In this document: positions 44,483 to 64,000 of the stretch, one piece after another
Numbering within the stretch: position 1 is the stretch's first letter
Layout of the letters: each line of letters starts with the position of its first letter
Source: Fimbriimonadaceae bacterium
GTDB taxonomy: Bacteria; Armatimonadota; Fimbriimonadia; Fimbriimonadales; Fimbriimonadaceae
Length of the DNA: 64,000 nt
Assembly: GCA_019638675.1 (NCBI GenBank)
Contig: JAHBTE010000001.1
Coordinates: 652,605 to 716,604 of the forward strand
Reading direction: 5' to 3'
The notes under the pieces: generated by a model
The model's database searches: none
What the model was told of the DNA's origin: nothing
What the model saw: only the letters and a program-made list of their open reading frames with translations
Translations under genes and position numbers: made by a program

Positions 44483-45663
44483 ACCAAACCAGGAGACGTT
44501 CCAGAACGGGAAAACATCGCACCTAAAGATACACCTTTTCCTAATTGGAATCCAAAATAACCTTGCGGGCCGCGCGGAGTGATGTAGATCGCAGCAAATG
44601 TGTCCGCGTTAGTATTCGATCTCCACAAATCCAAACCAGCTCCTACTTGAACTCCAGACTGTAGATCGGCCAGCAAGCTGAACCGCACAGTCGGGGAATA
44701 AAATTTATCTGGCGCATTAAATTGCCGCCCGCGAAGGGTCGCATCAAAAAACGCGGCCATCGACCTTGAGAGCCGAGACTTCACAAGAAAACCGCCGTAG
44801 TGACCAGTGTCTAGTGTAAGGGTTTCGACATTTGTCAACTTTTCTCGCAATCGGTCACCCGATTCGGGGGACACTACTGTGTCATAACGGGCGGAGATTA
44901 AATAGCTCTGGCGCTTGTCATCAGGCGACAGGTAATTCAGCGGCTCAATATCTGCCAACTCTTCTCGAAGTTTTTCTTCTGTCCATCCATCGGCTCTTAA
45001 ACCTGCCCGCGCAGCGGTCGTTCGCGAGGAGTTCATCATCAAGTATGCAAGATCAGCTCCGCCGAGCATAAATCCAGCCGACTTTATTCTCGGCTCGACT
45101 CCAAAAGCTAAAGCGGAAACAATTGCACCCAGGCTAGTGCCCGTAATGCCGATCGAATTTGAATCCATTTCTGGACGAGATTGAATCCAATCAAGTGTGC
45201 GCCGAATGTCGGCAATAGATTGAATCATCGTTCGGCGCAAAGCATGCGGATCGGGGACGATAGCGAGCTCACCACTCCGCTTGCCTGCCGGAGTTCGGCT
45301 CAAATGGTAAGGCATGGGCATAATCACGGAAGCGATCCCCCTCAGAGCCAGTTCTTGAGCCATTTCACGCTCCAGTTCGCTATCGGTCGCGCCCCAAAAA
45401 TGCAGAAGCAACACGACCGGGGGTTTGCCAATCGGCGAAGCTGGCATAAACACCTGTAAACTCACGGTATTGTTCTCAGGGTATTCAGTGACAACGGGCG
45501 AAGGAAACGCCACGCGAAACTCCGAATAATCCTCAGTTCTGCCGACCTGATCCCAGGTTGGAAACGTGATTTTCTCGGGCGCGGTTAAAACGTCTGAAAT
45601 CTGAGCGTAAGCACCAAGCCAACACATTATCAAGCCGACCATGATCACCAGCCTTGCCGCCAT
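44464..45663 (-). CDS. Secreted alpha/beta hydrolase
   Basis: This protein has about 399 residues with a signal peptide (AARLVIMVGLIMCWLGAYA). The nucleophile elbow is GITGTSLGAIVS (GxSxG), the acid is probably Asp in SARYDTVV, and the His is in DTGHYGGF. It resembles acetyl-xylan esterase/dienelactone-type hydrolases. The start overlaps the 5' end of the divergent repeat protein by about 23 bp, leaving no intergenic region; ATG 45642 would reduce this to 2 bp. The start is therefore uncertain. Confidence 0.83.
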   Translation of the reverse strand: MAARLVIMVGLIMCWLGAYAQISDVLTAPEKITFPTWDQVGRTEDYSEFRVAFPSPVVTEYPENNTVSLQVFMPASPIGKPPVVLLLHFWGATDSELEREMAQELALRGIASVIMPMPYHLSRTPAGKRSGELAIVPDPHALRRTMIQSIADIRRTLDWIQSRPEMDSNSIGITGTSLGAIVSALAFGVEPRIKSAGFMLGGADLAYLMMNSSRTTAARAGLRADGWTEEKLREELADIEPLNYLSPDDKRQSYLISARYDTVVSPESGDRLREKLTNVETLTLDTGHYGGFLVKSRLSRSMAAFFDATLRGRQFNAPDKFYSPTVRFSLLADLQSGVQVGAGLDLWRSNTNADTFAAIYITPRGPQGYFGFQLGKGVSLGAMFSRSGTSPGLVWSTVF

Positions 45664-47663: not shown

Positions 47664-48353
47664 ATGATTCCTATCCGCGATAACCTGTTGCGGAAAGAGC
47701 CTGCCGTCCTTGTTTGGACTCTCGTCGGGCTCAATATCATCATTTATCTTTGGGATAGAAATTTTGGCTTGTTCAGCTCCAACATTGCTTTTGCTGACTT
47801 GGCAATGCGCCCAAGACAGGTTTTGCTTGCATTCCGAGCTAACGGCGACCCACTTGAGATCGCGAAAATCTTCACCAGCATGTTCCTACACGGGAACCTG
47901 ATGCACATCATCGGAAACGTGCTGTTCCTTGCCGCATTCGGCCCGGCGGTGGAAGCCGCGATTCGAGGCCCGCGTTTTGCCCTTTATTACATCTTCTGGG
48001 GGATTGTTGCGGCTGGCGCGCATATCTTTGTGAACCCGGGTAGCGAAGCTCCAACTGTAGGTGCATCTGGCGCGATTGGTGGAGTGCTTGGCGCATACTT
48101 TTTGCTCTTTCCTGGAACACAGGTACGGGTCGTAATTCCTCCGTTTTTCTTTTTGCCGTTCAACGTAACGAGCTGGGTTCTGTTGGGCTTATGGTTTGTC
48201 TGGCAGGTGGTTTTCCCTCAACCGGGAGTGGCGAACTGGGCACATGCGGGAGGGTTCTTGGCGGGGATGGTCACAATTCTCGTGATGGGCGGTCGCAAGG
48301 CGATCTTGCAAGACGGGGATTTTGAGGAGGACAAAGACTTTGAAGACGACTAA
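47664..48353 (+). CDS. Rhomboid family intramembrane serine protease
   Basis: This 229-residue protein has about six TM helices. The catalytic Ser is in TVGASGAIGGVLGAYF and the His in NWAHAGGFLAGM. The early HGNLMHIIGN and the L1 loop (RGPRFALYYI) match the family. Rhomboids cleave TM segments of membrane proteins; the target here is unknown. The stop overlaps the start of the DUF5693 gene. An acidic tail ends the protein (GDFEEDKDFEDD). Confidence 0.95.
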   Translation: MIPIRDNLLRKEPAVLVWTLVGLNIIIYLWDRNFGLFSSNIAFADLAMRPRQVLLAFRANGDPLEIAKIFTSMFLHGNLMHIIGNVLFLAAFGPAVEAAIRGPRFALYYIFWGIVAAGAHIFVNPGSEAPTVGASGAIGGVLGAYFLLFPGTQVRVVIPPFFFLPFNVTSWVLLGLWFVWQVVFPQPGVANWAHAGGFLAGMVTILVMGGRKAILQDGDFEEDKDFEDD

Positions 48354-50172
48354 GTTTCCACTATACGTTTGGATTTCTATCCTATTGACCGCCATTCTCA
48401 GCTTCGTCAATATCTGGCCGAGATTCCAGGTGGAACAAGGGAATAAAGCCGTAACAATTGTCGTTGAAGCGGACATCGTTGATGAACTTTCTGCAACTCA
48501 GCGGATGACTTTTGCAGAGGGCTTAAGTTTCCTCAAAGATTATGGGGTTGGAGCAGTTTCGTGTAATGAACGAACCGCTGGCGAACTCCTTTCAAACGGC
48601 TTGGTGAATCTTGCTACCTTGCCGGATGGGAGCTACGAACTCACAGGTTCGGAGATGGATATCGAATCGATCGCCGAAGCCTATGCGGCGCGGTTCGGCA
48701 CAGTCCGGAGAAGTGATAGTGGATTACTCATCAGCGATCCCCAACGGCTGCGATTGCTCACGATTGGCCTTAATCCACGAGATGTAGAGGTCATCAGGCA
48801 AAATCAACTGCCGATCGTGGCTAGATTAGGAAACCCGACGGGAGTGCTTCCCAATTACGTCCACTTTACAATCCAAAAAGCCGCTAAACAAGGTGCGAAA
48901 TATTTTCTTCCCCTCGGTGAACAGGTTTTAGGAAACCAAGCCCTCATTAAAGATACTTCCGAAGCATTGAAGGCAAACGGAATGGTGTATGTCACCGCCG
49001 AGTTCGTGAAAATCGCGGGTGATTCAACGATTACCGGATTGGAACCAGAGAACGCCGTTCGACTCCACGCGGCTCAATCAGCGGAGTTGATTCGCATGTC
49101 TCAATCCGCCATTGTTGAACGATACGTCAAAGCTGCGCGTGAACGGAACATCCGATTACTCCTGGTTCGACCGGCGGGAACTGCATCTGAAACTCCGCTC
49201 AACGAATTCAGCAACTTGATCCGTGCCATCCGCGAAGGGATTGCCAAAGACGGAATGGCAGTTAAACCCTCTCGACCCTTCACCGAACCACGATCAAATA
49301 CTTTTCTGAAACTAGCACTCGGAATCGCCATGATTCCTGCGCTCGGATATTGTCTGCTTTCACTTGCCGGAAGTTGGAACCCTCAACTCGCAAAACCTGC
49401 CGCTTGGTTGATCGCAGGCGGGATTGGGCTTGCTACTTACTCATCCAGTCTGCGTGAGTATTCAGCACTCGCAGGAAGCATTCTCTTCCCGGTACTGGCT
49501 TATTTTTGGTTCCTCTCAAAGCCAAATCGGAATGCGATTTTAAGTTACGTTGGCATCTCTGCGATTTCATTGGTAGGTGGGTTGCAGATCGCAGGACTCC
49601 TTACGGCCTTGCCTTATATGCTCCATTTGAATCTATTTACTGGTGTAAAACTTTCTGTCTTCCTTCCCATTTTTATCGCGGGATTTTTGATGATGAATCA
49701 CCTCGCGCCCGTTAAGAAAACTTTAAATCAACCAGTGGTGTGGGGGACGCTTTTCGCCGCGATAATCGGGCTCGGGATGCTCGCGTTTATGAATTCCCGA
49801 ACCGGAAACGATAACCCAGCAGGAGTAAGCGGGCTAGAACTTCAATTCAGAAATATTCTCGATCAGCTCCTTTTCGCTCGGCCCCGAACCAAAGAGTTCA
49901 TGATCGGGCACCCGATGCTTTTGTTCGGATTGCTCACTTGGGCACGCGCACCGAAAGGTTCAAAATGGCATACTGTTGCGGCCCTGTTTATCGCCCTTGG
50001 AGCAATCGGGCAAACAAGCGTCGTCAATACGTTCTGTCATATCCACACGCCAATTGATTTAAGCATTGGGCGAGTCATTACCGGACATATAGCCGGGTGT
50101 ATAATCGGAGCCCTGGGTTGGGTTGTACTGCACAGATTTGTGCCGAAAGCAACCGGGGAAGATATTAACTAA
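48340..50172 (+). CDS. DUF5693 family membrane protein
   Basis: This protein has about 610 residues. An N-terminal TM anchor (FPLYVWISILLTAILSFV) is followed by an exported domain of about 290 residues (VEADIVDELSATQRMT; LLISDPQRLRLLTIGLNP) and then about eight TM helices. DUF5693 genes often precede csaB in this group, as here, so a role in surface polymer pyruvylation or export is likely. I chose TTG 48340, which has GGAGG 9 nt upstream; TTG 48322 is also open. The next gene begins 1 bp after the stop. Confidence 0.87.
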   Translation: MKTTKFPLYVWISILLTAILSFVNIWPRFQVEQGNKAVTIVVEADIVDELSATQRMTFAEGLSFLKDYGVGAVSCNERTAGELLSNGLVNLATLPDGSYELTGSEMDIESIAEAYAARFGTVRRSDSGLLISDPQRLRLLTIGLNPRDVEVIRQNQLPIVARLGNPTGVLPNYVHFTIQKAAKQGAKYFLPLGEQVLGNQALIKDTSEALKANGMVYVTAEFVKIAGDSTITGLEPENAVRLHAAQSAELIRMSQSAIVERYVKAARERNIRLLLVRPAGTASETPLNEFSNLIRAIREGIAKDGMAVKPSRPFTEPRSNTFLKLALGIAMIPALGYCLLSLAGSWNPQLAKPAAWLIAGGIGLATYSSSLREYSALAGSILFPVLAYFWFLSKPNRNAILSYVGISAISLVGGLQIAGLLTALPYMLHLNLFTGVKLSVFLPIFIAGFLMMNHLAPVKKTLNQPVVWGTLFAAIIGLGMLAFMNSRTGNDNPAGVSGLELQFRNILDQLLFARPRTKEFMIGHPMLLFGLLTWARAPKGSKWHTVAALFIALGAIGQTSVVNTFCHIHTPIDLSIGRVITGHIAGCIIGALGWVVLHRFVPKATGEDIN

Positions 50173-50173
50173 G

Positions 50174-51250
50174 ATGGCAAAACTGTTGCTTGCCGGATAC
50201 TTTGGTGCCGGCAATTTGGGAGACGACGCAATTCTGAAGGGATTCGTCCACGGAATTGATGGTCTCGATTTTCAGTTTCGCGTATTGTGTGGTTCCCCTG
50301 AACTCTTAATGCGTAACTTAGGTCTGCAAGGGATCAGCAAAAAAGATTTTGGTGGAGTCAAAAACGCTATCCAGGAATGTGATGCCCTCGTTTTCCCAGG
50401 CGGGAGCATTTTTCAAGATGTCACCAGCGTCAAAAGTGTCGCTTACTATTCCAAGCTTGTTTCTGAAGCCAAAAAAGCAAAGAAGCGCGTGATCATGCTC
50501 GGTCAAGGGGTTGGCCCCCTCACCAGCTGGACCGGCAAGCGGATGGGTGCCGGAGCGTTCAATGCCGCAGATGTTCTTACCGTGCGCGATCCGATGAGTG
50601 TGAGTGCACTCAAAGCCTTGGGTGTTTCCCAAGTTCCACGGGTTACCGCAGATTCAGCATTTTTACTCCCACCACCAGTTGAACGAGAAGAGTCATCCGC
50701 CCAATTTGGAGTAGCAGGAATGAAAACCATCGGGCTCTCTGCAAGACCGTGGGGCAAAGATAAGAATAAGACTGTCGTTTCAGTATTTGGCGACTTGATC
50801 AAACTCCTCAACCAAAACGGATTCGTCCCTGTGATGATGCCGATGGATTCTGCTGAAGACACAGCCCTTGGTGAAGCAATTGCAAAACTTCATGGAGGCA
50901 AAGTTCCCGAGTTAAAAGGGTTAACCACTCCTATGCAGTTTCAACAACGCGTTGGGCGAATGGAAGCGGTCATCGCCATGCGGCTCCACGCGGGAATCCT
51001 CGCGACAACCATGGGTATTCCGCCGTTAATGGTCAGTTACGACCCTAAAGTTACTGCTTTTGCGAACGTCATGGGGCTCCCAACCCCTCCTACAATCCAG
51101 GGAGCTACCGGAGACCGAATCTTCGGGCAGTTCCAATCGTTCATCAAAGACCGTGACCAAATCGCCGCAACCATTGTGCGGAAACGCGATGAGCAGATCA
51201 AAGCCGCCCAAGGCAATATCCAAGCACTTAGGGACTGCATGGGTGTCTAA
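50174..51250 (+). CDS. csaB: Polysaccharide pyruvyl transferase CsaB
   Basis: CsaB adds pyruvyl ketals to cell-surface polysaccharide, which in other bacteria serves as anchor for SLH-domain proteins. The protein has about 358 residues and begins AKLLLAGYFGAGNLGDDAIL, the family's N-terminal signature, and has VIMLGQGVGPLTSWTGK and VIAMRLHAGILATTMGIPP later, as in the PS_pyruv_trans domain. The upstream in-frame extension overlaps DUF5693 and is not used. The 3' end overlaps the next gene by 8 bp, so coupling is likely. Confidence 0.95.
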   Translation: MAKLLLAGYFGAGNLGDDAILKGFVHGIDGLDFQFRVLCGSPELLMRNLGLQGISKKDFGGVKNAIQECDALVFPGGSIFQDVTSVKSVAYYSKLVSEAKKAKKRVIMLGQGVGPLTSWTGKRMGAGAFNAADVLTVRDPMSVSALKALGVSQVPRVTADSAFLLPPPVEREESSAQFGVAGMKTIGLSARPWGKDKNKTVVSVFGDLIKLLNQNGFVPVMMPMDSAEDTALGEAIAKLHGGKVPELKGLTTPMQFQQRVGRMEAVIAMRLHAGILATTMGIPPLMVSYDPKVTAFANVMGLPTPPTIQGATGDRIFGQFQSFIKDRDQIAATIVRKRDEQIKAAQGNIQALRDCMGV

Positions 51251-53762
51251 GAGCTTCTGTCTCGCATTTACCGTTCTCCTCGCTGGATCAGCTTCGGCTC
51301 AATCCAGTGTGATCAAATGGGCGAAGGAAAACGTCACCAGTCGAATCAAAGCCTTTGGTGAAAGGAGAATTACATTTCACTTCCGTGATGTTGAGGGTGA
51401 CCGTGAAGCCTATAACGTCACTACCGACGGCGGTTTAGGGGATCAGCGTGTTACTGACTTAGGATATTTGCGGCTGGAAGGCCGGGAAGTCTTAGGCTGG
51501 CTAAACTTTGATGCGAACATCCAAGACGCCCGCTTTATTGATCCGCAGGCCCAGCGATACCGTCTGTGGGCTAATAAAAACGGATTCTCCGCTGAATACG
51601 GAGACATACGTGCGACTCTTCCATCGGAAAACCGTTTTGTTCAAGTTTCGAGCAACGTCACCGGATTGAACCTAGGATATAGAAAAGGGCCATTGCGTGT
51701 CGGTTTGATTCGAACTGAAGCCAGAGGAGAAGCCAGAACGATCTCAATTCCCGGGACGAACTCTGCTGGCCCTTACTATCTGCAAAGCAACCAAATCATT
51801 CGTGGATCAGAGCGAATTGAAGTGGATGGAGTTCTCCAAGTATTTGGTCGCGATTACACGATTGACTACGATATCGGTTCTGTCACCTTCCTCAACCGCC
51901 TCACCCTAGAAAGCAAAATTATTCCACCCACAAGCACAATCGTTGCAACGTACGAGTCCTTCAACTTTTCTGGCTCTGCGGGGCGAATTGAAGGGGCATC
52001 TGTTTCTTACGATTTCGGAAACTTCGGAAGAGTGGGAGTTACTGGAGCGCGGCAGGTCACCGGAGCGGGGGGTCAACTCTCAACCCGACTTGAAAAATTC
52101 CAAGGATTTGGCCCAGCCAGCACTCCTTATTTCCTGCAATTTCAACCCTTGCTCACGGAACCGTTTGTTGTGCGAGTAGATGGCGTACTCCAAGTCGAAG
52201 GCATTGACTACCGACTTGATCCCGAGAATCCAAGCATTTTCTATTTCAACCGGTTTATGCCTGCGTCTTCTAACATCGACGTTCTATACACACCAAAACC
52301 AACCAGCACAATACAAGGCGATCGCGAAGTTGTAGGTGTGGATTACACTTTGCCCTTTGGCAATCGTGGCGAAATTCGTCTCCAACAGGCAACAGGACGA
52401 TCGACGAACACACCAACACCGTCCTCAGGAACCGCAACCGGTGCCTCTGTCCGGTATGGCATCGGAGCATGGGATTTTCTAGCCAACTATCGCGATGTAC
52501 CAGCGGACTACGTGAGTATTCAGGCTACTTCGTTCAGCCGCAATGAGCGCGCAAATGACTGGCGTGTGAACTACCGGATAGATAAATCCTCAACTGTAGC
52601 CTTTGGAAACACGAACACCAGCATTCTCAACTTTAGCGGCACAAACCCTGCTACCCGAACGAGATTTACTCGCTCGTATGCGAACTACGACATCGTGAAA
52701 GACCCTCGCATTGGCTTGCCGCTACAATTCGTCGTTTCACGAACTAACACAGATAACAATGGGACGACGAATAACCAGATTGATTCCTATTCACTTTCCA
52801 CAAATAAAGTTTTTGGCCCGTTCATCACTTCGCTGTCAGCTGAACAACAAACAGTGACGGGCTCACAAAAAGCCGAAGTCCAAAGCTTGCGATTGCAAAC
52901 CAGTTACGACCCAAGCAAGGTCTGGAATTTCGGGCTTGGTACGGGCATCAATCACATTCGGAGCAATGGCGAAACTGGTCAGGGAACAGATGTTCAGCTA
53001 TCCGCCAGGTACACACCTAACGATGACCTGTTTGTGCGCCTCAACCATACGGAAAGCAATTCAGGCGGAATCACAAGCATTCCTGGCTTGAACACTGGCT
53101 ATGGAGCTGGATATAACGGCAACGGATTTTCTTCCGGTTCGGGAAGTTCGTTTATTACGGGAGCTACCAATGGAAGCATCACTTCGCTCCTCTTCCGATG
53201 GCAACCTAGTGAAAGACTCGCCTTGCGAGCAAACGGCTCGTTGTATCGTTCTTCAGGAAGCGTGAGCTCAAACGCTCGTACCAGAGCGGTTGGTTTTGGT
53301 ATGGATTACGATCTTGGCGGCGGTCACTTTATGGGAGGAGATATTGATCTCAGCACGACTGAATTTTCGACTTCCAACAACAAAAGCACTGCGACAACGA
53401 TGACTGGATTCATCAACGGCCAGTTCGGAAAACTAGGCTACCGAGGTTCGGGCAGTATCCTTCTTTCAGGCGGCAGTAGTCAGTTTGCGCAGGACAACAT
53501 CGCGTTTGATCTATCCTTCGACTACCGTCTTGCCCAAAGACACAATCTTGTCTTGTCTTCTTCTTATGGTCGGGTCACGGGATATCTTCCCCAAAACCAG
53601 TTTGATGTCAGCCTGATATACCAATATCAGATTTGGCAGAACCTTGCGCTGAACGTTCGCTACCGATTCAGCGACATCGTGAACCGCGATCCATTTGTCC
53701 AAAGCGGGGCCTACCGCTCTAACACCCTTGATTTTGAATTCTCGTTTAACTTCGGGCGGTAA
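51243..53762 (+). CDS. Exported beta-barrel-type outer membrane protein candidate
   Basis: This protein has about 839 residues. From GTG 51243 it begins with a signal peptide (FCLAFTVLLAGSASA before Gln). Two copies of a motif reading VDGVLQV-x-G-x-DY-x-x-D (near 51831-51880 and 52170-52220) precede a long region of alternating beta strands typical of outer membrane barrels, ending RSNTLDFEFSFNFGR. The reading frame is open back to 51060 inside csaB, but that part is a shadow. It may export or anchor the polymer modified by CsaB. No TonB-box or plug is recognised. Confidence 0.8.
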   Translation: MSKSFCLAFTVLLAGSASAQSSVIKWAKENVTSRIKAFGERRITFHFRDVEGDREAYNVTTDGGLGDQRVTDLGYLRLEGREVLGWLNFDANIQDARFIDPQAQRYRLWANKNGFSAEYGDIRATLPSENRFVQVSSNVTGLNLGYRKGPLRVGLIRTEARGEARTISIPGTNSAGPYYLQSNQIIRGSERIEVDGVLQVFGRDYTIDYDIGSVTFLNRLTLESKIIPPTSTIVATYESFNFSGSAGRIEGASVSYDFGNFGRVGVTGARQVTGAGGQLSTRLEKFQGFGPASTPYFLQFQPLLTEPFVVRVDGVLQVEGIDYRLDPENPSIFYFNRFMPASSNIDVLYTPKPTSTIQGDREVVGVDYTLPFGNRGEIRLQQATGRSTNTPTPSSGTATGASVRYGIGAWDFLANYRDVPADYVSIQATSFSRNERANDWRVNYRIDKSSTVAFGNTNTSILNFSGTNPATRTRFTRSYANYDIVKDPRIGLPLQFVVSRTNTDNNGTTNNQIDSYSLSTNKVFGPFITSLSAEQQTVTGSQKAEVQSLRLQTSYDPSKVWNFGLGTGINHIRSNGETGQGTDVQLSARYTPNDDLFVRLNHTESNSGGITSIPGLNTGYGAGYNGNGFSSGSGSSFITGATNGSITSLLFRWQPSERLALRANGSLYRSSGSVSSNARTRAVGFGMDYDLGGGHFMGGDIDLSTTEFSTSNNKSTATTMTGFINGQFGKLGYRGSGSILLSGGSSQFAQDNIAFDLSFDYRLAQRHNLVLSSSYGRVTGYLPQNQFDVSLIYQYQIWQNLALNVRYRFSDIVNRDPFVQSGAYRSNTLDFEFSFNFGR

Positions 53763-53801
53763 CGCACCAGTAAGAAAAACGTTAAATAACCAGAGAAAAA
53801 C

Positions 53802-55109
53802 ATGAAACGTTGCTTTGCTTTTTTTGGAGCGGGATTAGCTACAATTTCGGCTATTTTGCTCGTTGGATGTGGTGGGCTCACTGGCCCGCGCACGTCTACT
53901 GTCACCGGTACGGTTATCGATTGGGACTTTAACCCAATGAGAGACGCTCGGGTCACTGCAGCGGGGAAAACCACCTACACGACCACGACCGGTTCTTACA
54001 CGTTGGAAAATTTGCCCGATGGCGATGTTGAGGTGCTTGCGGAAGCGACTGTGAACGGGACAAGATACTATGGTCGCACGACCATCTTCAACATTGAAAA
54101 CACGCAACAAAATAACGTCAACATTTTGGTTGCACCTGAAAATCAGCGCGCTACTCTCACTGGCACCGTTCGGGATCGCGAAGGATTTCTGCTTCAAGGC
54201 GCAAGCGTCTTCGCTTGGTCTGGTGTAGGAAGTAGCACCCGCGCTGTGACCGACGAAAACGGTCGGTACACCATGCGAGATCTTCCTGCCAATACTGGAC
54301 TAGATGTGAGCGCAACTGGTCGCGGATATCGCAGCGATCAAACCGGGGTCACTTTGAGCGTCAACCAGACTCGTACGATTGACTTCATTCTCGATAATCC
54401 GGGCCTTCCTGGCCTCAATCCTCCGAGCAACATCAATTCGGTCACTTGGGTCACCCACCCAACGGCTAACCGTGGCCCGGAAGAAGAAGCTGCTTATGAA
54501 GCCATGAAATCAATTTTTGATTCCAAGCACAAAAAGGCGACCAATACGACTAGGGTTATCCGCACCGATATGTCGGTAGAAACAGAACTCTATTGGGATC
54601 TGGTTCAATTTCCTGACCTGCTTGGGTTCAACATTTACCGAGGCGTCGGTTCTACTGGCTCCGTTTCGCCGCTTGATCTATCGTTCGATCCTCTATCCAA
54701 TTACTACGTTGACATCGGTTTGAACCCGCAAAGCACTTACAGTTATGCGGTGAGCACCGTCGCAACTCTTTATCCAGACTACAACAACACAGAAAGCCAA
54801 CTCAGTTCTCGAGTGGTGGTTCAAACCTTGAACCTCCTTCACTTGAACAATGTCACTTTCGGGCCGACGTTCAACTGGCAAAGCGGTTCCGGTGCGGTAG
54901 ATTTCTACATCTACATATTCGACCGGTACCCGACTGGTTCAGCAGGCGTAAACAACGTTGTCTACTCAAGCAATGCAGTTGGTGGCACCAGTTGGACATA
55001 CTCTGGCCCAGTGCTCCAATCTGGCAGGACATACTATTACATCATAGTTGGAACAGCTAACGGCCTTTCGAGTCGAACGATTAGCCAGGTTGGAACGTTC
55101 GTACCATAG
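53802..55109 (+). CDS. Lipoprotein with carboxypeptidase-regulatory-like domains
   Basis: This 435-residue protein has a lipoprotein signal with lipobox LLVGC. Two carboxypeptidase-regulatory-like/Ig-like domains follow (VTGTVIDWDFNPMRDARVTA; LTGTVRDREGFLLQGASVFA), then fibronectin type III-like segments. It is probably anchored in a membrane facing the periplasm or cell surface. It is 39 bp after the barrel candidate, and the next gene begins 7 bp after its stop. Confidence 0.85.
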   Translation: MKRCFAFFGAGLATISAILLVGCGGLTGPRTSTVTGTVIDWDFNPMRDARVTAAGKTTYTTTTGSYTLENLPDGDVEVLAEATVNGTRYYGRTTIFNIENTQQNNVNILVAPENQRATLTGTVRDREGFLLQGASVFAWSGVGSSTRAVTDENGRYTMRDLPANTGLDVSATGRGYRSDQTGVTLSVNQTRTIDFILDNPGLPGLNPPSNINSVTWVTHPTANRGPEEEAAYEAMKSIFDSKHKKATNTTRVIRTDMSVETELYWDLVQFPDLLGFNIYRGVGSTGSVSPLDLSFDPLSNYYVDIGLNPQSTYSYAVSTVATLYPDYNNTESQLSSRVVVQTLNLLHLNNVTFGPTFNWQSGSGAVDFYIYIFDRYPTGSAGVNNVVYSSNAVGGTSWTYSGPVLQSGRTYYYIIVGTANGLSSRTISQVGTFVP

Positions 55110-55116
55110 AGGTTGC

Positions 55117-57858
55117 ATGAAAGTTAATGAGTGGATTAGGGCGGCGTCAGCCGCCCTCGTTTTTGGAGTCGCAGCATCAAATGCATTTGCGACAGATTTG
55201 TACGTGGAAATGCCTTCAGGTCGCTCTGCAAATGGTTCTAGCGACTACGGATTTGCTGTTGAACAGGCTGTCAAGAATGCCGCTCACCGCATGGCAAAAC
55301 TAACTCAAGCACGTCGAGACTTGAAGCCAAGTAATGTTGAATTCACTCTTCCCACTCGCGTCATCCTCACTCGAAATGGCATCCCTCTCGCCATGAACTC
55401 CAGTCTGATGAAGACGCGGTCTTTGCCCACTTTGAGCTTATTGTTTGCATCAAGCGGCTCCACCGCATTCCCTGGGGACTACCGGACACAACTAGAAAGC
55501 ACATACACCGCTGCTAAATCGGCGATGGATGCAGTTTTTGGTCAGGCAGTTGTCGGCGGAACTGTCAACGTTGTCAATTACGATGCGGATATTCCGGATC
55601 GTCAAGCGGTTTCGGGCGGTATCTACATTCCCAATGCGCCGAGTGGGCCAGAGATCAGATTCCCAATCTATAACAGCCAAGTTAGCGCGAGCATCAATTT
55701 CATTCATTGCCTTCTCCTCGCTTATTTGGCGGACAAAAGTTATCCATTTGATGCTTATAACGAAGGCTTTGTCCGGGCGGCAACCATGACCGTAGCGCGG
55801 GTTCCAGCTACGATTCCAAACAGTACGACTACCGAAATCGCACAAACCTTAGAAAGCCTATACGATTCAAGCGATGTTTACCAGTGGAGCAATTACCCTG
55901 GATTAGGTGCACCGGTGTTCATTGCACCAAACTTGCTCAACGACCCGCTACCAGCCGGTGGAAGCACAGGCGGTATCTACCTTCTGCGGTACAAGATGGC
56001 CGGAACGGCGTGGAGCAAAGTTCTGGTGGAATATCCCGGCTTTATCGCTCAGTTCAACAGCGTTTACACAGCCAACCCGCAGGGATACTCAACAGAAGCC
56101 GATCTTCTTACACTTGGACAGCAAACGATTAATTTTCTGCAAGGTTCCGGAGGAGCCACTGTAGAAGGGCGCTCTTTTGGTGACTGGGCACTGCGCCAAT
56201 CTATTTTGGATGTCCGACTCAATCCCGGCATCAAATTAGTGCCAGAGGCATTCCCGTTCGAAGCGACTCCCGCCTCTAGCGACTTCGGAGTCTTCGGTAT
56301 CGTTCTCAACGCCTTTAGAACTTTGCCTAACGGAAATGAAATCCTGCTCAATGGCACGAGTTACCCCATTTACTGGCGAAACGATTTCACCCGCTTCTTC
56401 ACTTCAGTACAAGACGATATCATTCCGGTCGCTGGAGCCTACGGAGCTGTAGCTCCGAACTTTCCAGCCGATGGCGGGGCAAATCTCATCTACCGGACGG
56501 CGGTTGATTTGCCTTTTCTTGGCAAAAACGTTCGACTGTATCTCCCCGCTGGCGCATATTCCACGGGGGCAAGCAGTATTCCCAAAAACGTTTACGGCAC
56601 ACTCGTTGGTTACGATCAAAGTGCGACAGGGCTCAATATTCGAGTTGTGTGGAACAACGGAGAAGTCAGTATTCCGGTAATCAATGGAGCATTCAGCAAC
56701 TTTATCGCTGATTCCAATTTCACAACTGCACAGCGAATAACAGTGCAAGTTCGGACTACACCCGGAAATACGGTTCTGCAAACCGTGATCGTGAATAAGG
56801 CCAGAGGCGATCTCGCTCTGGATTTGAGGTCACCCGCAAGCGACACAACCTTCAACGCAAACCTGCTTGCCAAATTGAATACGTTTAGCCTTCCGTTAGA
56901 ACCGTACCGGCCAAACCCGCCCGATATCTTGGGTCTTACTGATAATCAAACTCTTTTCGCGCGATTCGATCCGTTCACAGGCAAGTACAACTTCTATCCG
57001 GACGAAGGAGAAGTTCGGCAAGGACTTGGCTTCTTCACTCGGATGCCCGCCGCCCAAGCGATCTCGATTCCTGGTCGAACTAGCGAAAAAACTCCTCTCG
57101 CAGTCAGTCTAAAACCGGGTTGGAACTTGATTTCTGTTCCAGCAGACTCAAATGCGACCAAGAATGACATTTTAGTGACGACTTCGACTCAAGCGGTTTC
57201 AACCTGGGCTCAGGCTCAAGGAACAATCGTTTCGGATACGGTCTTTAAATTCACACCCGATCCGGTGAACCCTGACCTTGGAACTCTGGTTCCTGCAACT
57301 ACCTTTGTAAGGGGCGAAGCCTATTACGTGCGTTCTCTGCTTTCGGATGGGGCAGTTCTTGTATTCCTCAACGGTTCGGTTGCTCCTTCGACTAGTTTCC
57401 AAAACCTTCAAAATGCGTCGGGAGCTAATGGCCCTTCCCAAAATCAAGGAGGCGGATCTTCGACATTCAACGGCTGGCTGAATCAACTCGAACTGAGGAG
57501 TAATGTCGGTCACTACTGCCAAGTGGAGATTGGACAGTCTGCTAATGCTTCGCGCTCTTATTCACATGAAGACTTGCTACTTCCCGTTGGGCCAGGTGGC
57601 TTCCAAATGACGGTTGAGAACCAAAAGTCAGGCCTCTACCGCGATCTGCGTGATCGAAGATACAGAGACAGATTTGAAATTAAAATCACCAATCTCAAAC
57701 CAGGCCTGACTTACACATTGCGAAATAATGCCTTGGCTGGTTCGCAAAGTTTGGCGCTTAGCGGAATCCAGTTCAGTCGATACTGGCTGGGTGCCGGAGG
57801 CACCGCATCTTTTGTCGCAACAAACACTACGATGACCTTCTGGGTGGAGAATCAATAA
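55117..57858 (+). CDS. Large secreted protein, unknown function
   Basis: This protein has about 913 residues with a signal peptide (AASAALVFGVAASNAFA). The N-terminal 450 residues include helical and beta segments, and the remainder is beta-rich with a segment LAVSLKPGWNLISVPAD that is common in surface proteins. ATG 55117 has AGAGG 5 nt upstream. The stop overlaps the next ATG (TAATG). No enzyme motif is recognised. Cotranscription with the flanking lipoproteins is likely. Confidence 0.8.
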   Translation: MKVNEWIRAASAALVFGVAASNAFATDLYVEMPSGRSANGSSDYGFAVEQAVKNAAHRMAKLTQARRDLKPSNVEFTLPTRVILTRNGIPLAMNSSLMKTRSLPTLSLLFASSGSTAFPGDYRTQLESTYTAAKSAMDAVFGQAVVGGTVNVVNYDADIPDRQAVSGGIYIPNAPSGPEIRFPIYNSQVSASINFIHCLLLAYLADKSYPFDAYNEGFVRAATMTVARVPATIPNSTTTEIAQTLESLYDSSDVYQWSNYPGLGAPVFIAPNLLNDPLPAGGSTGGIYLLRYKMAGTAWSKVLVEYPGFIAQFNSVYTANPQGYSTEADLLTLGQQTINFLQGSGGATVEGRSFGDWALRQSILDVRLNPGIKLVPEAFPFEATPASSDFGVFGIVLNAFRTLPNGNEILLNGTSYPIYWRNDFTRFFTSVQDDIIPVAGAYGAVAPNFPADGGANLIYRTAVDLPFLGKNVRLYLPAGAYSTGASSIPKNVYGTLVGYDQSATGLNIRVVWNNGEVSIPVINGAFSNFIADSNFTTAQRITVQVRTTPGNTVLQTVIVNKARGDLALDLRSPASDTTFNANLLAKLNTFSLPLEPYRPNPPDILGLTDNQTLFARFDPFTGKYNFYPDEGEVRQGLGFFTRMPAAQAISIPGRTSEKTPLAVSLKPGWNLISVPADSNATKNDILVTTSTQAVSTWAQAQGTIVSDTVFKFTPDPVNPDLGTLVPATTFVRGEAYYVRSLLSDGAVLVFLNGSVAPSTSFQNLQNASGANGPSQNQGGGSSTFNGWLNQLELRSNVGHYCQVEIGQSANASRSYSHEDLLLPVGPGGFQMTVENQKSGLYRDLRDRRYRDRFEIKITNLKPGLTYTLRNNALAGSQSLALSGIQFSRYWLGAGGTASFVATNTTMTFWVENQ

Positions 57859-58730
57859 TGAACCGTTGGCTTCTCTTTTTGGTTGTCATCTTTGGCGCGA
57901 TAATTCTAGGTTGCGGCGGAGGTGGCGGAGGCGTTTCCACTGGAACCGTCAACGTAGTTGCTAACGTGCTTTGGGTTGAAACGGGTTCGGCAACAAGTCC
58001 TCAAGCAACGGTACGGATCGGAGATGTTTCGACTTTAACCGATGAGATCGACGGGTTCGTTTCACTTGATGTTCCGCCTGGAAACTTGACTTTAACGGTT
58101 ACGTTTACACCGAATGGTAGCCCAACACCTATCGTACGAACCTTTCCTCTCGGAATCGTAACCGGTGATATTGATCTTGGCGAAATATATGTAGGGCCAG
58201 AAGAGATCATTCTCACTGGTCAGTTCGTTGATTCGACGACTTCAAATCCGGTTAACCAAGCAACGGTCAAGTTTGCGGGTCGTACAGCAATTACTGGCTC
58301 TGACGGGCGATTTACAATGACAAACGTCGCCTATTCATCGGCAACCCAAAGCGTGTTCTTTGGAATCCAAGGTCAAGCGACAAAAACGGGTTATTTCACC
58401 ACGTTTTTCAGCCCACCCGGGCCGCCAACCTCAGGAATTTTGGATATCGGCACACTCACGCTGACTCCAGAAGGTTCTTCCAATCCGCCGCCACTTCCGT
58501 TTAACGTCAGTGGGCTCGCAACTCCTACGGGAGGATTTGCCGAAATCGAAGTTCTTTCTGGTGTAACTCCGATTCGCAACGTCACAGCAGATGCGTTTGG
58601 CAACTTCACTTTGTGGCTCCCAGTTGGCACTTACACGGTAAACGCAACCTCTGGGGTTAGGACGGGAACAACCAATCTGACCGTCACAAGCGTCAATACA
58701 GTAACGAATGTTCAAATCACCCTCAACTAG
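57858..58730 (+). CDS. Lipoprotein with carboxypeptidase-regulatory-like domain
   Basis: This 290-residue protein has a lipobox ILGC followed by a run of Gly. Beta-sandwich domains follow (VRIGDVSTLTDEIDGFVSLD, LTGQFVDSTTSNPVNQATVK), similar in type to the first lipoprotein. It starts on the stop of the previous gene (TAATG), and its end overlaps the OstA-like gene by 23 bp, so the three are translationally linked. Confidence 0.83.
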   Translation: MNRWLLFLVVIFGAIILGCGGGGGGVSTGTVNVVANVLWVETGSATSPQATVRIGDVSTLTDEIDGFVSLDVPPGNLTLTVTFTPNGSPTPIVRTFPLGIVTGDIDLGEIYVGPEEIILTGQFVDSTTSNPVNQATVKFAGRTAITGSDGRFTMTNVAYSSATQSVFFGIQGQATKTGYFTTFFSPPGPPTSGILDIGTLTLTPEGSSNPPPLPFNVSGLATPTGGFAEIEVLSGVTPIRNVTADAFGNFTLWLPVGTYTVNATSGVRTGTTNLTVTSVNTVTNVQITLN

Positions 58731-60135
58731 AGCCGCAATCGCTAACCTGAGCGGGATCCTCGCTTTAGGTGCCGCTTCACTGGGCACCTACAAGTTTGTT
58801 GAGTCGGTGGTTTTCACCGATGCCCTAGCTGATTACCGGGCAGTGAATAGCCCATTCAAAGATGGCGAAGGCGTAGTAATTAAGAACTTCGGGCTCAAAT
58901 CGTACATCGGCAAAAAGCTCGTTACTGAAGCTCGTGTCGATAACGCCACGATCAAGAACGACCGTTCAACCATTGAACTAGAAGGAATCCACGACGGCGT
59001 TTTCTACGACGATGCGGGCAAAAAATACAACTTCGTTGCACAAGCTGCCTCTTATGGGACGTACTCGAAGTCAATCCACGCGAACAAAGGCATTCGCGTA
59101 TTCAACGACACTGCTGACCTCAAAGCACCAGGATTTACCTATGAGCACCCGATTCGTCGAGTCACATTTCTTGGTGATATCACGGGCAAATTAGGGGGCG
59201 GCGATTTAATCACCAAATCCGTTTTCATTGACCTCAAAAATAAGGAAATCCTGACTGGAGAACTCTCTTGGACAGGCCCTTTGCAGGTTGATAATCCTCA
59301 AAAAACACCTTGGAAGATCACAGCTAAAAGTTCAAAACTCCGCAACGACATCACCACCTACACCGAAGCACGCGGTGAAGACAAAGACACGATCGTCAAA
59401 GCCGATAAAATGATTTACGATCGGGCGAACGATGTTGTGACCGCCGAGGGAAATGTCGAATACTTTGGCGTAGATGCCAATGTCGCTTGCGATAAGGTCG
59501 TCATCGAACGAAAAATCAACAAAGCCACCCTAACAGGAAAAATCGTGCGGATGCTAATCAAGCCAGAAGATAGTGCTCCGAAAGAAAGCAAAATTCCTCC
59601 TGTTGTGCCAATGGTGCCAGATTCGGTTGCGGGAAATCGCCCCAAGGCAGATTCTAGCCCTAGTCAAGATCAGCAAAAGAAGGAAGAAGACGAAGTTCGA
59701 TCAGCGGATAATATTCGCCATTACCCAATCGCACTTACTGCTGGACAAATTGAATATTGGTACAAGAAAGGGGAGCGAAAGGCAATTCTTACTGGTAACC
59801 CGTTTGCTCGCCAGGAATTTAGTGGCTTGAATATCAGATGGCGAGAGCTTTACGCAGCGAAAGCAGAATATGACGGCGAGAAAGAAGAACTGAAACTAAC
59901 TGCCTCGCCAGCTCAAATCGTAAGGGCGAAAAACTCCATAGGCGATGATATAACCACACCATTTGCAATCATTTCAACCAAAAAGGATGATAACGCAATG
60001 GAGACAGGGGCGATTAGTGGAACCGTGATGATTAACGATAATGAGTTACCCAAAAAGGGCGATGGTTCAGGTTCATCAGGCGGGACAACTGGTGGAACAG
60101 GCGGCGGTAGCCTCAACGGCCCTATTGGTCGTTAG
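58708..60135 (+). CDS. LptA/LptC-like OstA domain protein
   Basis: This 475-residue protein has an N-terminal TM anchor (IANLSGILALGAASLGTYKF). LptC-like beta strands follow (about 50-190), then an OstA/LptA-type segment: KADKMIYDRANDVVTAEGNV and DKVVIERKINKATLTGKI. Such proteins form the periplasmic bridge that carries lipopolysaccharide to the outer membrane. The fused length suggests one protein doing both LptC- and LptA-like jobs, or a paralogue for another amphiphile. A Gly/Ser-rich tail ends the chain. No lptB, F, G or D is in the window. Confidence 0.82.
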   Translation: MFKSPSTRAAIANLSGILALGAASLGTYKFVESVVFTDALADYRAVNSPFKDGEGVVIKNFGLKSYIGKKLVTEARVDNATIKNDRSTIELEGIHDGVFYDDAGKKYNFVAQAASYGTYSKSIHANKGIRVFNDTADLKAPGFTYEHPIRRVTFLGDITGKLGGGDLITKSVFIDLKNKEILTGELSWTGPLQVDNPQKTPWKITAKSSKLRNDITTYTEARGEDKDTIVKADKMIYDRANDVVTAEGNVEYFGVDANVACDKVVIERKINKATLTGKIVRMLIKPEDSAPKESKIPPVVPMVPDSVAGNRPKADSSPSQDQQKKEEDEVRSADNIRHYPIALTAGQIEYWYKKGERKAILTGNPFARQEFSGLNIRWRELYAAKAEYDGEKEELKLTASPAQIVRAKNSIGDDITTPFAIISTKKDDNAMETGAISGTVMINDNELPKKGDGSGSSGGTTGGTGGGSLNGPIGR

Positions 60136-60196
60136 GTCATATCCAACCCAGAGCCACTTCAGGCCGTCATGTAATCTGGAATAGATTCCTTAGATC

Positions 60197-61105
60197 ATGG
60201 CGTCGAAAAGGTTGATTCGCGATTACCCTTACCTCAGTGCATATTTGGATGTCCCCCATCCAAACCCGCTGGTGGAACGCCTTGCGTCGCTTTCTAATTT
60301 TGGTTGTCTTGCCGCAATAGGCGGTGCTCCAATGGTGGCAATTCTTAGTTTTATGATCTCTGATCGGTTTATCGGCCCGATTGGAGGTTCGCTATTCGCT
60401 TTAGGAATGGCAGTCACAAGTGGCGTTTTACTATTCAGTTTTGGCAAGCGACACTCAGAAAAAGCGGCAAAGGAGGCAACCGTCGAAGACAAATTGATGT
60501 CGCAAGCCGCCCAAGCTATTGATCACTTTAAAAAGCTGGATCGAGAGCGCAAACTCCATAAATGGATGGATCCAGTCGCGATTCAGCTTCTGGAAGCGGG
60601 TGCCTACCATTGGTCGCGGATTCGCCAAACGTTTGATGACAGCCGTTGGAATGTCAGCCAACTCCCCGAACACTGGGTGGGATTGAAGCAAAAAGCGCAC
60701 TCTGCCGCAAACCTTGCGATGGCGGAATTGGTGATTTTGTGTGCTGGCTGCACGGGTGAACCAACAAAAACCCGCAAAGACGACTTCCAGTCCGTCTTTG
60801 AAGATTTAGTTGATTTGGATATTGAGGACGCTCTGCGCGGACTCGCCAAAGTCACCGCCACCCATCCCAAGGAATACCGCTTCCAAAGCCCGCAAACCAA
60901 GGAAATCTTTGAACCTGCGCGGCAAATCGCCGAGCGGCTCAAGCAACTTGCCGACGAAATGGAGCAAGCAACTCAAATCGCAAAAACCGAGTTGCCACAA
61001 TCTCAGCTCAACCTTGGCCAAGAGACGATAGGCCACCTCCTTGAAGAAATCAAAGCCGTGCGCCAGGCCGAACAGGAACTGCATCAATCCCAAAGGTCTG
61101 ATTGA
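60197..61105 (+). CDS. Two-TM protein with cytoplasmic helical domain, unknown
   Basis: This 302-residue protein has two adjacent TM helices (about 35-85) after a polar N-terminus, then a long charged helical domain ending in a coiled coil. It shares layout and a weak ungapped 34-residue match with the protein after rimO (28146-28877). It lies 61 bp after the OstA gene and 39 bp before the nucleotidyltransferase fusion, inside the envelope run. The function is unknown. Confidence 0.72.
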   Translation: MASKRLIRDYPYLSAYLDVPHPNPLVERLASLSNFGCLAAIGGAPMVAILSFMISDRFIGPIGGSLFALGMAVTSGVLLFSFGKRHSEKAAKEATVEDKLMSQAAQAIDHFKKLDRERKLHKWMDPVAIQLLEAGAYHWSRIRQTFDDSRWNVSQLPEHWVGLKQKAHSAANLAMAELVILCAGCTGEPTKTRKDDFQSVFEDLVDLDIEDALRGLAKVTATHPKEYRFQSPQTKEIFEPARQIAERLKQLADEMEQATQIAKTELPQSQLNLGQETIGHLLEEIKAVRQAEQELHQSQRSD

Positions 61106-61144
61106 ACCTATTGCCGCGGGGGTGACCCCAGATAATATGCGGGT

Positions 61145-63691
61145 ATGGGAGATCATGTTAGTACGGAGCAACTTTCACAAAACACAGTGAAAGCCGTCGT
61201 CATGGCGGGAGGCGAAGGTAGCCGCCTGCGGCCCATCACTCTGAATCTTCCCAAGCCTCTCGTTCCTATCGCTAATCGCCCGATCATGGGGCATATTATT
61301 AACCTCCTCAAAGAGCACGGGATCACTGAAATTGTCACCACGCTCCACTATTTAGCGGATGAGATTCAAAACGTGTTTGGCGATGGGTGCGAATACGGAG
61401 TTTCTATCACTCATTCGCTTGAAGACACTCCCCTTGGCACTGCAGGCGCGGTCAAACAAGCCGAAGCCTTGCTGAAAGACGGCACTTTTGTGATCATCAG
61501 CGGCGACGCACTGACAGATTGTAATTTAACTAACGCACTAAAGTTTCACCGGGAAAAGGGCAGTCTTGCGACGCTCGTTCTCTCACGAGTGCCAAACCCA
61601 CTTGAATTCGGAATCGTGATGACTCAACCAGATGGTCGAGTCGAGAGATTTCTGGAAAAACCAGGCTGGGGCGAAGTTTTTTCGGACACGGTCAACACAG
61701 GAATTTATATTCTCGAACCAGAGATTTTTGACTATATCGAGCCTCACACCAACACAGATTGGAGCAAAGATGTTTTCCCGCGCTTGCTAGAAGAAGGAAA
61801 GCCGATGTACGGCTTTATCATGCAGAAGTATTGGTGCGATGTCGGTACCTTGGAGCAGTACCGCGAGGCTCAAGAAGACTTTTTGGCCGGGAAAACCACA
61901 TTAAGCGTTCCGGGAGAACTAACGGCTCCAGGAATCTGGGTCGGTGAAAACACGATCATTGATGAAACTGTAACACTGGAATCTCCGGTTTGCATCGGCA
62001 GTAACGTCCGTATTAAGCGCGGCGCAACAATCGGCCCGGGAACCGTGATCGGGGACAGTTGCTTGATTGAAGAGGGCGCAAACGTTGAACGAAGCGTGAT
62101 CTGGGATCGGTGTTACGTGGGTAACGACGTTCATATTCACGGGGCGATTGTTGGTTCCCGCGTAACCCTCAAACGGGATAGCCGATTGCAGGATGGCTCG
62201 GTTGTGGGGGATCGTTGTTTGGTTGATGTCGGTAGCACCATTCGCCCCCGAGTAAAAATCTGGCCGGAAAAATCTATTGACCGAGGTTCTACTGTAACCA
62301 TGTCTCTGGTTACTGGCAACCGGTGGCGAGGTGCCCTCTTCCGTGAGCTAGGAGTTGCAGGCCTCAGCAACATCGAAATCACTCCCGAATTCGCGACTCG
62401 GCTCGGGCTGGCGTTTGGTTCTATGTTGCCGGAAAACAGTTTGGTTCTCGCCTGCCGCGATAGCTCTCGGAGCAGCCGTATGATTAAGCGCAGTTTGATG
62501 GCGGCTCTGCTCAGCGCCGGATGCCAAGTTGTTGATATGCACGGGCAAGCGGTTCCGGTTCTGAGGCACGCACTCAAAAATAGCGAAGCAGTGTCGGCGA
62601 TAAACGTTCGTAAATTCCCCGGAAACAACCGATTAAGCTTGATCGAGTTTTATGATGAGAATGGAGGTTACCTGCCGCGCAACACAGAGCGCAAAGTCGA
62701 AGCGGCATTTTTCCGTGAAGACTTTCATCGTGCTGACCCAGAAAGCCTTGGCATTATCGAGGAAGCCAACCAAGTGGTTGAGGCATACACCCGCGACTTC
62801 ATGGCGAACTTGCCTCAGTTCAACATGGAGCGTAGACCGAGGATAGTTGTTGACTACGGATACAGTTCAGTAAGCGGCATCCTTCCCGCGATTCTAGGCC
62901 GAGTTGGAATTGACGCGATCAGCATCAACAGCTTCAACGACGCCCGGTCTGCGCCAAGAAGACCAAGTGAAATTCAAGATCACACAACCAACCTTCAGCA
63001 AATCGTTGCCAGCGTGGGTTGCGATCTTGGAGTTTTGATTCTCAACGAAGGCGAAAACATCGCGATTGTTGATGATCAGGGTATTGCCCTTTCCGGCAAT
63101 ACGCTTTTCGCCGCGATGTGTCAACTGGTTGCTCAAACCCAGCCCTCTGGAAGCATCGTCATGGGAATTACCGCCCCAACCAGATTGGAAGATTTACTTA
63201 AAAAGCAGGGAATTTCCGTAGAGCGCTGCCGATCCGGAGTTCGAGAACTCATCCAAGGAGCCCAGAACGCAGATGTTGCATTTGCCGGAAACGAGAATGG
63301 AGGGTTTATCTTCCCTCGGCTTCACTCGGGGTTCGATGGTTTATTTAGCATTACCATGCTCGTCAAACTCCTCCAAATGGAAGGGCTGAAGATGAGCGAA
63401 CTCGTCGCCCAACTGCCGGAGTTCCATCTTGCTTCTGACACAATTCCATGTCCCTGGGAGTCGAAAGGGGCTGCGATGCGCAAGCTAGCGGAAGATAAAA
63501 CTATTAACCGAAAGGTTGAGTATTTAGATGGTCTGCGATTTTATGACGACGATTCATGGGTGCTCGTATTGCCGGATTCGTTCGAACCGATCTTCCATGT
63601 CGTCGCCGAAAGCCCGTCTCTGGTAGACAGTCAAGCGTTAGTTCGTGAATACTCAGAGAAAATAACTCAACTCCAGGCCGAATCATCGTGA
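61145..63691 (+). CDS. Mannose-1-phosphate guanylyltransferase/phosphomannomutase-like fusion
   Basis: This protein has 848 residues. Residues about 18-250 are a nucleotidyltransferase with signature MAGGEGSRLRPITLNLPKPL at the nucleotide-binding loop. A left-handed beta-helix follows (about 265-375). Residues 390-848 resemble a phosphohexomutase, but the usual TASHNP phosphoserine loop reads INVRKFPGN, so the catalytic Ser is missing there. The last domain has LASDTIPCPWESKGAAMR as in phosphomannomutases. It probably makes GDP-mannose or a related nucleotide sugar; mutase activity is doubtful. The next gene overlaps its stop by 4 bp. Confidence 0.9.
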   Translation: MGDHVSTEQLSQNTVKAVVMAGGEGSRLRPITLNLPKPLVPIANRPIMGHIINLLKEHGITEIVTTLHYLADEIQNVFGDGCEYGVSITHSLEDTPLGTAGAVKQAEALLKDGTFVIISGDALTDCNLTNALKFHREKGSLATLVLSRVPNPLEFGIVMTQPDGRVERFLEKPGWGEVFSDTVNTGIYILEPEIFDYIEPHTNTDWSKDVFPRLLEEGKPMYGFIMQKYWCDVGTLEQYREAQEDFLAGKTTLSVPGELTAPGIWVGENTIIDETVTLESPVCIGSNVRIKRGATIGPGTVIGDSCLIEEGANVERSVIWDRCYVGNDVHIHGAIVGSRVTLKRDSRLQDGSVVGDRCLVDVGSTIRPRVKIWPEKSIDRGSTVTMSLVTGNRWRGALFRELGVAGLSNIEITPEFATRLGLAFGSMLPENSLVLACRDSSRSSRMIKRSLMAALLSAGCQVVDMHGQAVPVLRHALKNSEAVSAINVRKFPGNNRLSLIEFYDENGGYLPRNTERKVEAAFFREDFHRADPESLGIIEEANQVVEAYTRDFMANLPQFNMERRPRIVVDYGYSSVSGILPAILGRVGIDAISINSFNDARSAPRRPSEIQDHTTNLQQIVASVGCDLGVLILNEGENIAIVDDQGIALSGNTLFAAMCQLVAQTQPSGSIVMGITAPTRLEDLLKKQGISVERCRSGVRELIQGAQNADVAFAGNENGGFIFPRLHSGFDGLFSITMLVKLLQMEGLKMSELVAQLPEFHLASDTIPCPWESKGAAMRKLAEDKTINRKVEYLDGLRFYDDDSWVLVLPDSFEPIFHVVAESPSLVDSQALVREYSEKITQLQAESS

Positions 63692-64000
63692 AATTTCTCT
63701 CCTTATTTGTTTTAGTTCTGATGGGGAGTTTAATTCTCGGTCAAAATTCCAAATTACCCGTCACGGATCAGTCACATCCTACGGTCGTCCAACCGAAGCA
63801 AGCGACCACCCCGCGAGTCACTAATCGGCCAGGGAATCGGCTAGGAACAGTACTCGTTCTGATGTACCACCGCACTGGGCCAGACGAAAAGTTCATGGTG
63901 CGCTCTCACAAGCGATTCCGGGAAGATTTAGAGCGCCTCTACCGGCTTGGTTATCGCCCGGTAACCCTTGCCGAATATTCGCTCAATAAAATGCCGTTGC
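63688..64000 (+). CDS. Polysaccharide deacetylase family protein, cut by the window end
   Basis: 104 codons are present. GTG 63688 overlaps the stop of the previous gene (GTGA). The N-terminus is a signal peptide (FLSLFVLVLMGSLILG), followed by a polar linker. VLVLMYHRTGPDEKF and FREDLERLYRLGYRPVTLAE mark the start of a NodB-like deacetylase domain. The metal-binding motifs lie beyond the window. The coupling to the guanylyltransferase fusion suggests work on the same surface polymer. Confidence 0.85.
   Translation, partial: MKFLSLFVLVLMGSLILGQNSKLPVTDQSHPTVVQPKQATTPRVTNRPGNRLGTVLVLMYHRTGPDEKFMVRSHKRFREDLERLYRLGYRPVTLAEYSLNKMPL

Follow-up and report, generated by a model that had tools for sequence, protein, structure and literature searches.

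The 64,000-nucleotide stretch of DNA that we analysed (the window, G000:C1:652605-716604 of a 2.85 Mb genome) carries a conserved series of envelope genes that, judged from sequence, is probably a module that pyruvylates SCWP for outer-membrane tethering, combined with a set of outer-membrane assembly genes. Its core, made up of DUF5693, CsaB, a giant barrel, lipoprotein 1, D936, lipoprotein 2 and an LptC/LptA protein, would probably constitute one tether-and-assembly operon. We computed gene identities, order and conservation, together with the presence of OmpM, LpxC, LptB, LptF/G, LptD and WecG in the genome, and infer the role of each protein in the organism, above all those of DUF5693 and the barrel set. 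The nearest named relative found was the Fimbriimonadaceae MAG ACE_ARM8, whose DUF5693 is 96% identical.

The initial annotation had described at least ten consecutive plus-strand genes that overlap or lie close together, and this layout was confirmed: ten plus-strand genes follow in series from 48340 to past 64000, all those named being present in the order given, with spacing of -23 to +61 bp. From the rhomboid gene to the deacetylase gene, the successive gaps are -14, +1, -8, +39, +7, -1, -23, +61, +39 and -4 bp. The run continues upstream (rhomboid, repeat protein) and downstream, where an HD-domain gene overlaps the deacetylase gene by 4 bp and closes it. Its members are as follows.

45641..47635, + strand: repeat protein, 664 aa; open reading frame with ~20-residue repeats (motif D..G(N/D)D.Y); dN/dS 0.022
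47664..48353, + strand: rhomboid intramembrane protease (PF01694, E 9e-27); 14-bp overlap with DUF5693
48340..50172, + strand: DUF5693 membrane protein (PF18949, E 1e-115)
50174..51250, + strand: CsaB polysaccharide pyruvyl transferase (PF04230, E 3e-35; TIGR03609, 202.8 bits)
51243..53762, + strand: giant outer-membrane beta-barrel, ~36-38 strands predicted, SprA-resembling (AF2 model)
53802..55109, + strand: lipoprotein 1, with CarboxypepD-type domains (lipobox LLVGC; PF13620, E 1e-20)
55117..57858, + strand: D936, a large secreted protein of 913 aa with no Pfam match
57858..58730, + strand: lipoprotein 2 (lipobox in the translation; weak CarboxypepD match)
58708..60135, + strand: LptC-LptA fusion with an N-terminal membrane anchor (PF06835, E 1e-5; PF03968, E 5e-4; TIGR03002, E 1e-8)
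60197..61105, + strand: 302-aa protein without assigned family; open reading frame whose tie to the core is confined to the genus
61145..63691, + strand: sugar-1-phosphate nucleotidyltransferase/phosphomutase fusion (PF00483, E 8e-57; PF02878-PF02880); linked in the genus only
63688..64000 and 599 bp past the window, + strand: polysaccharide deacetylase-like protein, assigned from sequence without a profile scan

Across the 11 genes tested against the sister genome G117, dN/dS is 0.015-0.037, which indicates strong purifying selection and therefore real genes; because the gene order is also repeated in other families, the run is not a product of chance. The assigned starts (TTG for DUF5693, GTG for the barrel) are putative and based on overlap and signal-peptide position, and scans of the run for consensus promoters and terminators gave hits not above those in shuffles. 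The repeat protein is probably the first gene of the run, its membership being uncertain: it ends 28 bp before the rhomboid gene, and the pair is adjacent in several genera of the family. The rhomboid gene lies upstream of DUF5693 in 43/69 named loci.

The pyruvyl transferase is CsaB-like rather than WcaK-like (202.8 versus 43.2 bits). Its TIGR03609 match spans positions 1-292 of 301 and falls 10 bits short of the cut-off of 213.1, which the CsaB of a same-genus genome (G061) exceeds at 224.5 bits. The activity expected of this class is 4,6-ketal-pyruvyl transfer to ManNAc of the SCWP repeat, and the substrate of the P. alvei enzyme is lipid-linked SCWP repeats (PMC6030368). In Deinococcus-Thermus and Cyanobacteria, the outer membrane is tethered through pyruvylated SCWP to which the SLH domain of OmpM binds (PMC10628300), and OmpM/SlpA-like proteins are reported from Armatimonadetes (PMC10628300, PMC9388160). 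The initial annotation had noted that CsaB is best known from Gram-positive S-layer anchoring and had called its pairing with an OstA/LptC-like protein and a barrel candidate notable; CsaB in a diderm is not surprising in itself, since pyruvylated SCWP with SLH porins is already a published tether (PMC10628300, PMC9388160).

The search for SLH-domain proteins that had been proposed gave two answers, depending on the model. The Pfam SLH model has no match in this genome or in 5/6 other members of the genus, and a first reading, from that model alone, of a genome without an SLH protein proved wrong. A profile built from the SLH porins of relatives finds a full-length SLH porin (G000:C1:872873-874756, E 1.5e-129 over 636 positions), with a homologue also in all six genus members; Pfam misses it because the SLH domain has diverged below the Pfam cut-off. 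The protein has the OmpM-type architecture of an N-terminal SLH domain, a coiled coil and an outer-membrane barrel, and its N-terminus reads FPDVPENHWAYQALKNLKDKVLFGYTDGFYRGTRMTSRYE. Its SLH region scores E 4.9e-19 against a profile of the corresponding region in relatives (0/999 shuffles matched) and retains the W and the RYE of the TRAE-type motif. Because this genome encodes an SLH porin and the pyruvylated-SCWP tether is published, CsaB here fits the known tether.

Across the phylum, 190/201 genomes have an SLH match and 191/201 have DUF5693, and WecG/TagA was present in 12/12 genomes searched, our own included. Among 14 control genomes, DUF5693 occurs in Thermus, Deinobacterium, Thermotoga and Bacteroides (one of the four weak or below cut-off) and SLH in Synechococcus, Thermus, Deinobacterium and Thermotoga, an overlap that is suggestive in a small sample. 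In one genome of the same family (G111, L077-L088), the SLH-porin profile matches only in pieces, its SLH-like and barrel portions lying apart or on separate contigs. Genomes of family f20 (G023, G037, G048, G083, G109) each have some 30 SLH matches or more, compared with one to six in most others, which suggests an S-layer-type expansion.

Two of the nearest known systems bear comparison here. With the P. alvei SCWP locus orf1-csaB-tagA-tagO-orf7 (PMC6030368), the cluster shares CsaB, a WecG/TagA in the genome, an SLH-domain partner and an unnamed gene (orf1 there) immediately before csaB; here, however, the host is a diderm, tagA lies outside the operon and outer-membrane genes follow csaB. 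With the OmpM/SlpA tether of Terrabacteria (PMC10628300, PMC9388160), it shares CsaB and a full-length SLH porin of its own, whereas here the porin gene lies outside the operon, 170 kb from csaB, and its SLH domain has diverged.

On the preferred reading, CsaB would pyruvylate a wall polymer that is lipid-linked and whose synthesis involves a WecG/TagA-type transferase encoded elsewhere, and DUF5693, an inner-membrane protein whose conserved residues would face the periplasm, would act on the polymer after export, most likely in its polymerisation or its joining to peptidoglycan. By binding the pyruvylated polymer as its ligand, the SLH domain of the distant porin would tie outer membrane and wall together. 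At the outer membrane, the barrel would function jointly with D936 and both lipoproteins, the LptC/LptA protein would be a component of LPS-bridge type, and their union in one operon may keep tethering matched to outer-membrane growth.

DUF5693 matches PF18949 with 388.1 bits (cut-off 29), and we found no mention of it in the literature searched. An AF2 model (pLDDT 90.6) predicts a transmembrane helix, an alpha/beta barrel at ~35-315 and then, by our own count, nine transmembrane helices. The fold matches listed fall almost all on the barrel domain and hardly on the transmembrane part. LamB/YcsF and DUF610 proteins come closest to this extracytoplasmic barrel (Z 13.4-14.4, rmsd 3.6-4.0, 180-195 residues), a modest lead over other barrels at Z 12.1 and below; DUF610 we take to be a divergent polysaccharide deacetylase. 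Conserved residues of the transmembrane domain (G435, K437, R487, G489, N490, E500 and R504, and likewise R514-P515-R516, K518, C566, H567, H569 and P571) are predicted to lie in or at periplasmic-side loops under an N-terminus-inside topology, which was derived from helix counting and agrees weakly with loop charges.

SRTGN and HxH motifs had hinted that DUF5693 might be a Wzy/WaaL homologue, an idea abandoned when the profile comparison failed: against 29 Wzy_C proteins, its transmembrane part gave an hhalign probability of 1.7%, with no detectable homology, so that any relationship would have to be distant. In this it differs from WpaA/WpaB of Bacillus anthracis (Wzy/WaaL clan; PMC6030368), with which it shares the character of a polytopic membrane protein proposed for SCWP polymerisation or ligation. 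Two loci on contigs titled Bacillota (L149) and Clostridia (L160) were read from sequence: L149 has DUF5693, CsaB and a TagA-like gene in order, and L160 has DUF5693, CsaB and then MurJ/Wzx-like, FabZ-like and WecA-like genes. Because of the predicted periplasmic site and the CsaB, TagA-like and flippase-like neighbours, SCWP polymerase or ligase is the likeliest role for DUF5693, as a candidate put forward tentatively.

The barrel is predicted with middling confidence (AF2 from 12 sequences, pLDDT 76.9, pTM 0.50) to have ~36-38 long strands. Among the 50 fold matches listed, SprA chains give the longest alignments with the model (441-597 residues, rmsd 6.2-7.9), and ordinary porins reach similar Z with ~240-300 residues aligned at rmsd 9-15. 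The SprA model TIGR04189 matches 11/12 barrel homologues (best E 1.1e-10) in one inserted domain; on the window barrel, the match covers residues 175-267 only, at 24.9 bits against an equivalog cut-off of 200. A single match in this genome to the T9SS C-terminal sorting domain TIGR04183 scores 21.3 bits, below its cut-off of 23. Because the equivalog cut-off is widely missed and no T9SS tail protein scores above cut-off, the modelled barrel is SprA-resembling and not a member of SprA. It shares with SprA/Sov, the T9SS translocon, ~36 predicted strands, the longest fold alignments and an inserted domain similar in sequence, but has 840 residues compared with ~2300 in SprA. D. radiodurans is reported to have three predicted 38-stranded barrels (PMC9388160), and giant barrels are therefore not confined to T9SS. 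A sequence search of the PDB with the barrel profile gave no match. In D936, H198 and G218 are invariant and E217 is kept in 21/22 homologues; by eye, its N-terminal part is reminiscent of a metallopeptidase domain that lacks HExxH.

There is a small but real chance that the genes form an undescribed trans-envelope machine, in which DUF5693 would be the missing polymerase or ligase and the barrel, D936, the lipoproteins and the LptC/LptA protein would build the tether or couple it to outer-membrane growth. It is unlikely that the cluster is instead a pathway for a pyruvylated exopolysaccharide or O-antigen, in which a CsaB-decorated polymer is exported through the barrel as exit pore, the LptC/LptA protein carries a glycolipid and OmpM binds something else. 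Pyruvylated exopolysaccharides are known (PMC6801904), two Wzy_C-type proteins are encoded elsewhere in the genome, and the barrel, lipoproteins, LptC/LptA-type protein, sugar-nucleotide enzyme and deacetylase do share one run. However, the pyruvyl transferase scores as CsaB and not as WcaK, a Pfam scan found no glycosyltransferases in the run, SLH porins accompany the cluster phylum-wide and the sugar enzymes lie outside the conserved core. The earlier proposal of a pathway that makes, pyruvylates, transports and anchors a surface polymer survives as a conserved envelope cluster with pyruvyl transfer as one step; the polymer itself more probably belongs to the wall, in the periplasm, than to the surface.

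Conservation of gene order across Armatimonadota, which the initial annotation had put forward for checking, is borne out. The named loci were taken as the top 80 hits of an Armatimonadota profile and so are not a random bacterial sample; CsaB directly follows DUF5693 in 64/75 of those with at least 1 kb of downstream sequence; at least two of the remaining 11 (L132, L161) have CsaB just beyond the distance limit. A second locus set, which partly repeats the same genomes, gives 40/47. Of the named loci, 50 extend 9.5 kb or more downstream; 29 of these have the barrel, 18 lipoprotein 1, 18 D936, 16 lipoprotein 2 and 19 the LptC/LptA protein, and the barrel set is absent beside CsaB in many loci. 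The full order from CsaB through barrel, lipoprotein 1, D936 and lipoprotein 2 to LptC/LptA occurs seven times, and five further times without lipoprotein 1. This order repeats within the family, and shorter versions occur in distant families, among them CsaB, barrel, lipoprotein 1, D936 and lipoprotein 2 (L156) and barrel, lipoprotein 1 and D936 (L161). The LptC/LptA protein follows CsaB in several classes, and two neighbouring genes of this type do so in L127, L131 and L169. In one complete genome (L092, CP021423.1), the barrel homologue is broken into three open frames, by a frameshift or a sequencing error.

Family f15 is without DUF5693 and keeps CsaB and SLH porins; after its CsaB come homologues of the barrel (912 aa, E 5e-128) and of D936 (953 aa, E 5e-136). 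DUF5693 is therefore not indispensable. That f15 had lost DUF5693 and CsaB together was considered and rejected, CsaB being retained. At L227:3779-10455 of this family, CsaB, the giant barrel and D936 stand in a row without DUF5693. Unrelated occurrence of the members across genomes, which had been named as evidence against a shared pathway, is thus not what we found: the order recurs, including CsaB, barrel and D936 in f15, and this test fails to refute the proposal.

That recurrence also makes it very unlikely that these are housekeeping envelope genes without a common task, grouped only by the way a small genome generally arranges its genes in operons: the linkage of the 302-aa protein, the sugar-nucleotide fusion, the deacetylase and the HD gene in the genus only would suit such a grouping, but the core order repeats in distant families at protein identities near 30%. 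The same limit trims the earlier assignment of the sugar-nucleotide fusion and deacetylase to the pathway; both are in the run, but among loci read far enough to tell, they lie beside the core within the genus only.

The LptC/LptA protein has the parts of the LPS-bridge LptC and LptA (N-terminal membrane anchor, LptC domain, then LptA/OstA domain), both domain matches being marginal (PF06835, 25.3 bits, cut-off 21; PF03968, 20.9 bits, cut-off 20.4), but here both are in one chain beside CsaB. LPS core genes are reported from Armatimonadetes (PMC5007114). This genome encodes LpxC; close to it and to BamA, at 0.80 Mb, it also has LptB, LptF/G and a further LptC, and because that second LptC stands beside LptB and LptF/G, the window protein is an additional one. 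The LptD Pfam models PF04453 and PF19838, which are narrow, have no match in the genome; an LptD-like protein with an LptA-type N-terminus and then a barrel is encoded at 1.43 Mb, preceded by an LptF/G-like gene. We had considered the window barrel as LptD, the LPS translocon, and rejected this because an LptD-like protein is encoded at 1.43 Mb; that no LptD chain is among the 50 barrel fold matches listed excludes nothing. Least probable of all is that the barrel and LptC/LptA protein form a second LPS-type translocation route, the barrel substituting for LptD and CsaB being a mere neighbour: the LptC/LptA protein does recur with CsaB and barrel and is extra to the LptC at 0.80 Mb, but an LptD-like protein already exists, the barrel has no LptD or LptA-domain match and aligns longest with SprA, and LptC/LptA follows CsaB also where no barrel is near (L105, L107, L110).

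The cluster is thus real and conserved, and is largely accounted for by the published tether principle. What appears new is DUF5693 as a candidate SCWP enzyme and a CsaB-linked, predicted ~36-strand, SprA-resembling barrel; the link of the CsaB cluster to an extra LptC/LptA fusion is unexplained. Polymerisation of SCWP repeats and their joining to peptidoglycan is described as an open question (PMC6030368). DUF5693 and CsaB are neighbours across a diderm phylum, and in the Bacillota locus a TagA-like gene joins them; this company makes DUF5693 a concrete, testable candidate for SCWP polymerisation or ligation. The tether has been proposed as ancestral for Terrabacteria; here it would stand beside LPS-bridge and barrel genes, a linkage that bears on the possible loss of the outer membrane in monoderm lineages.
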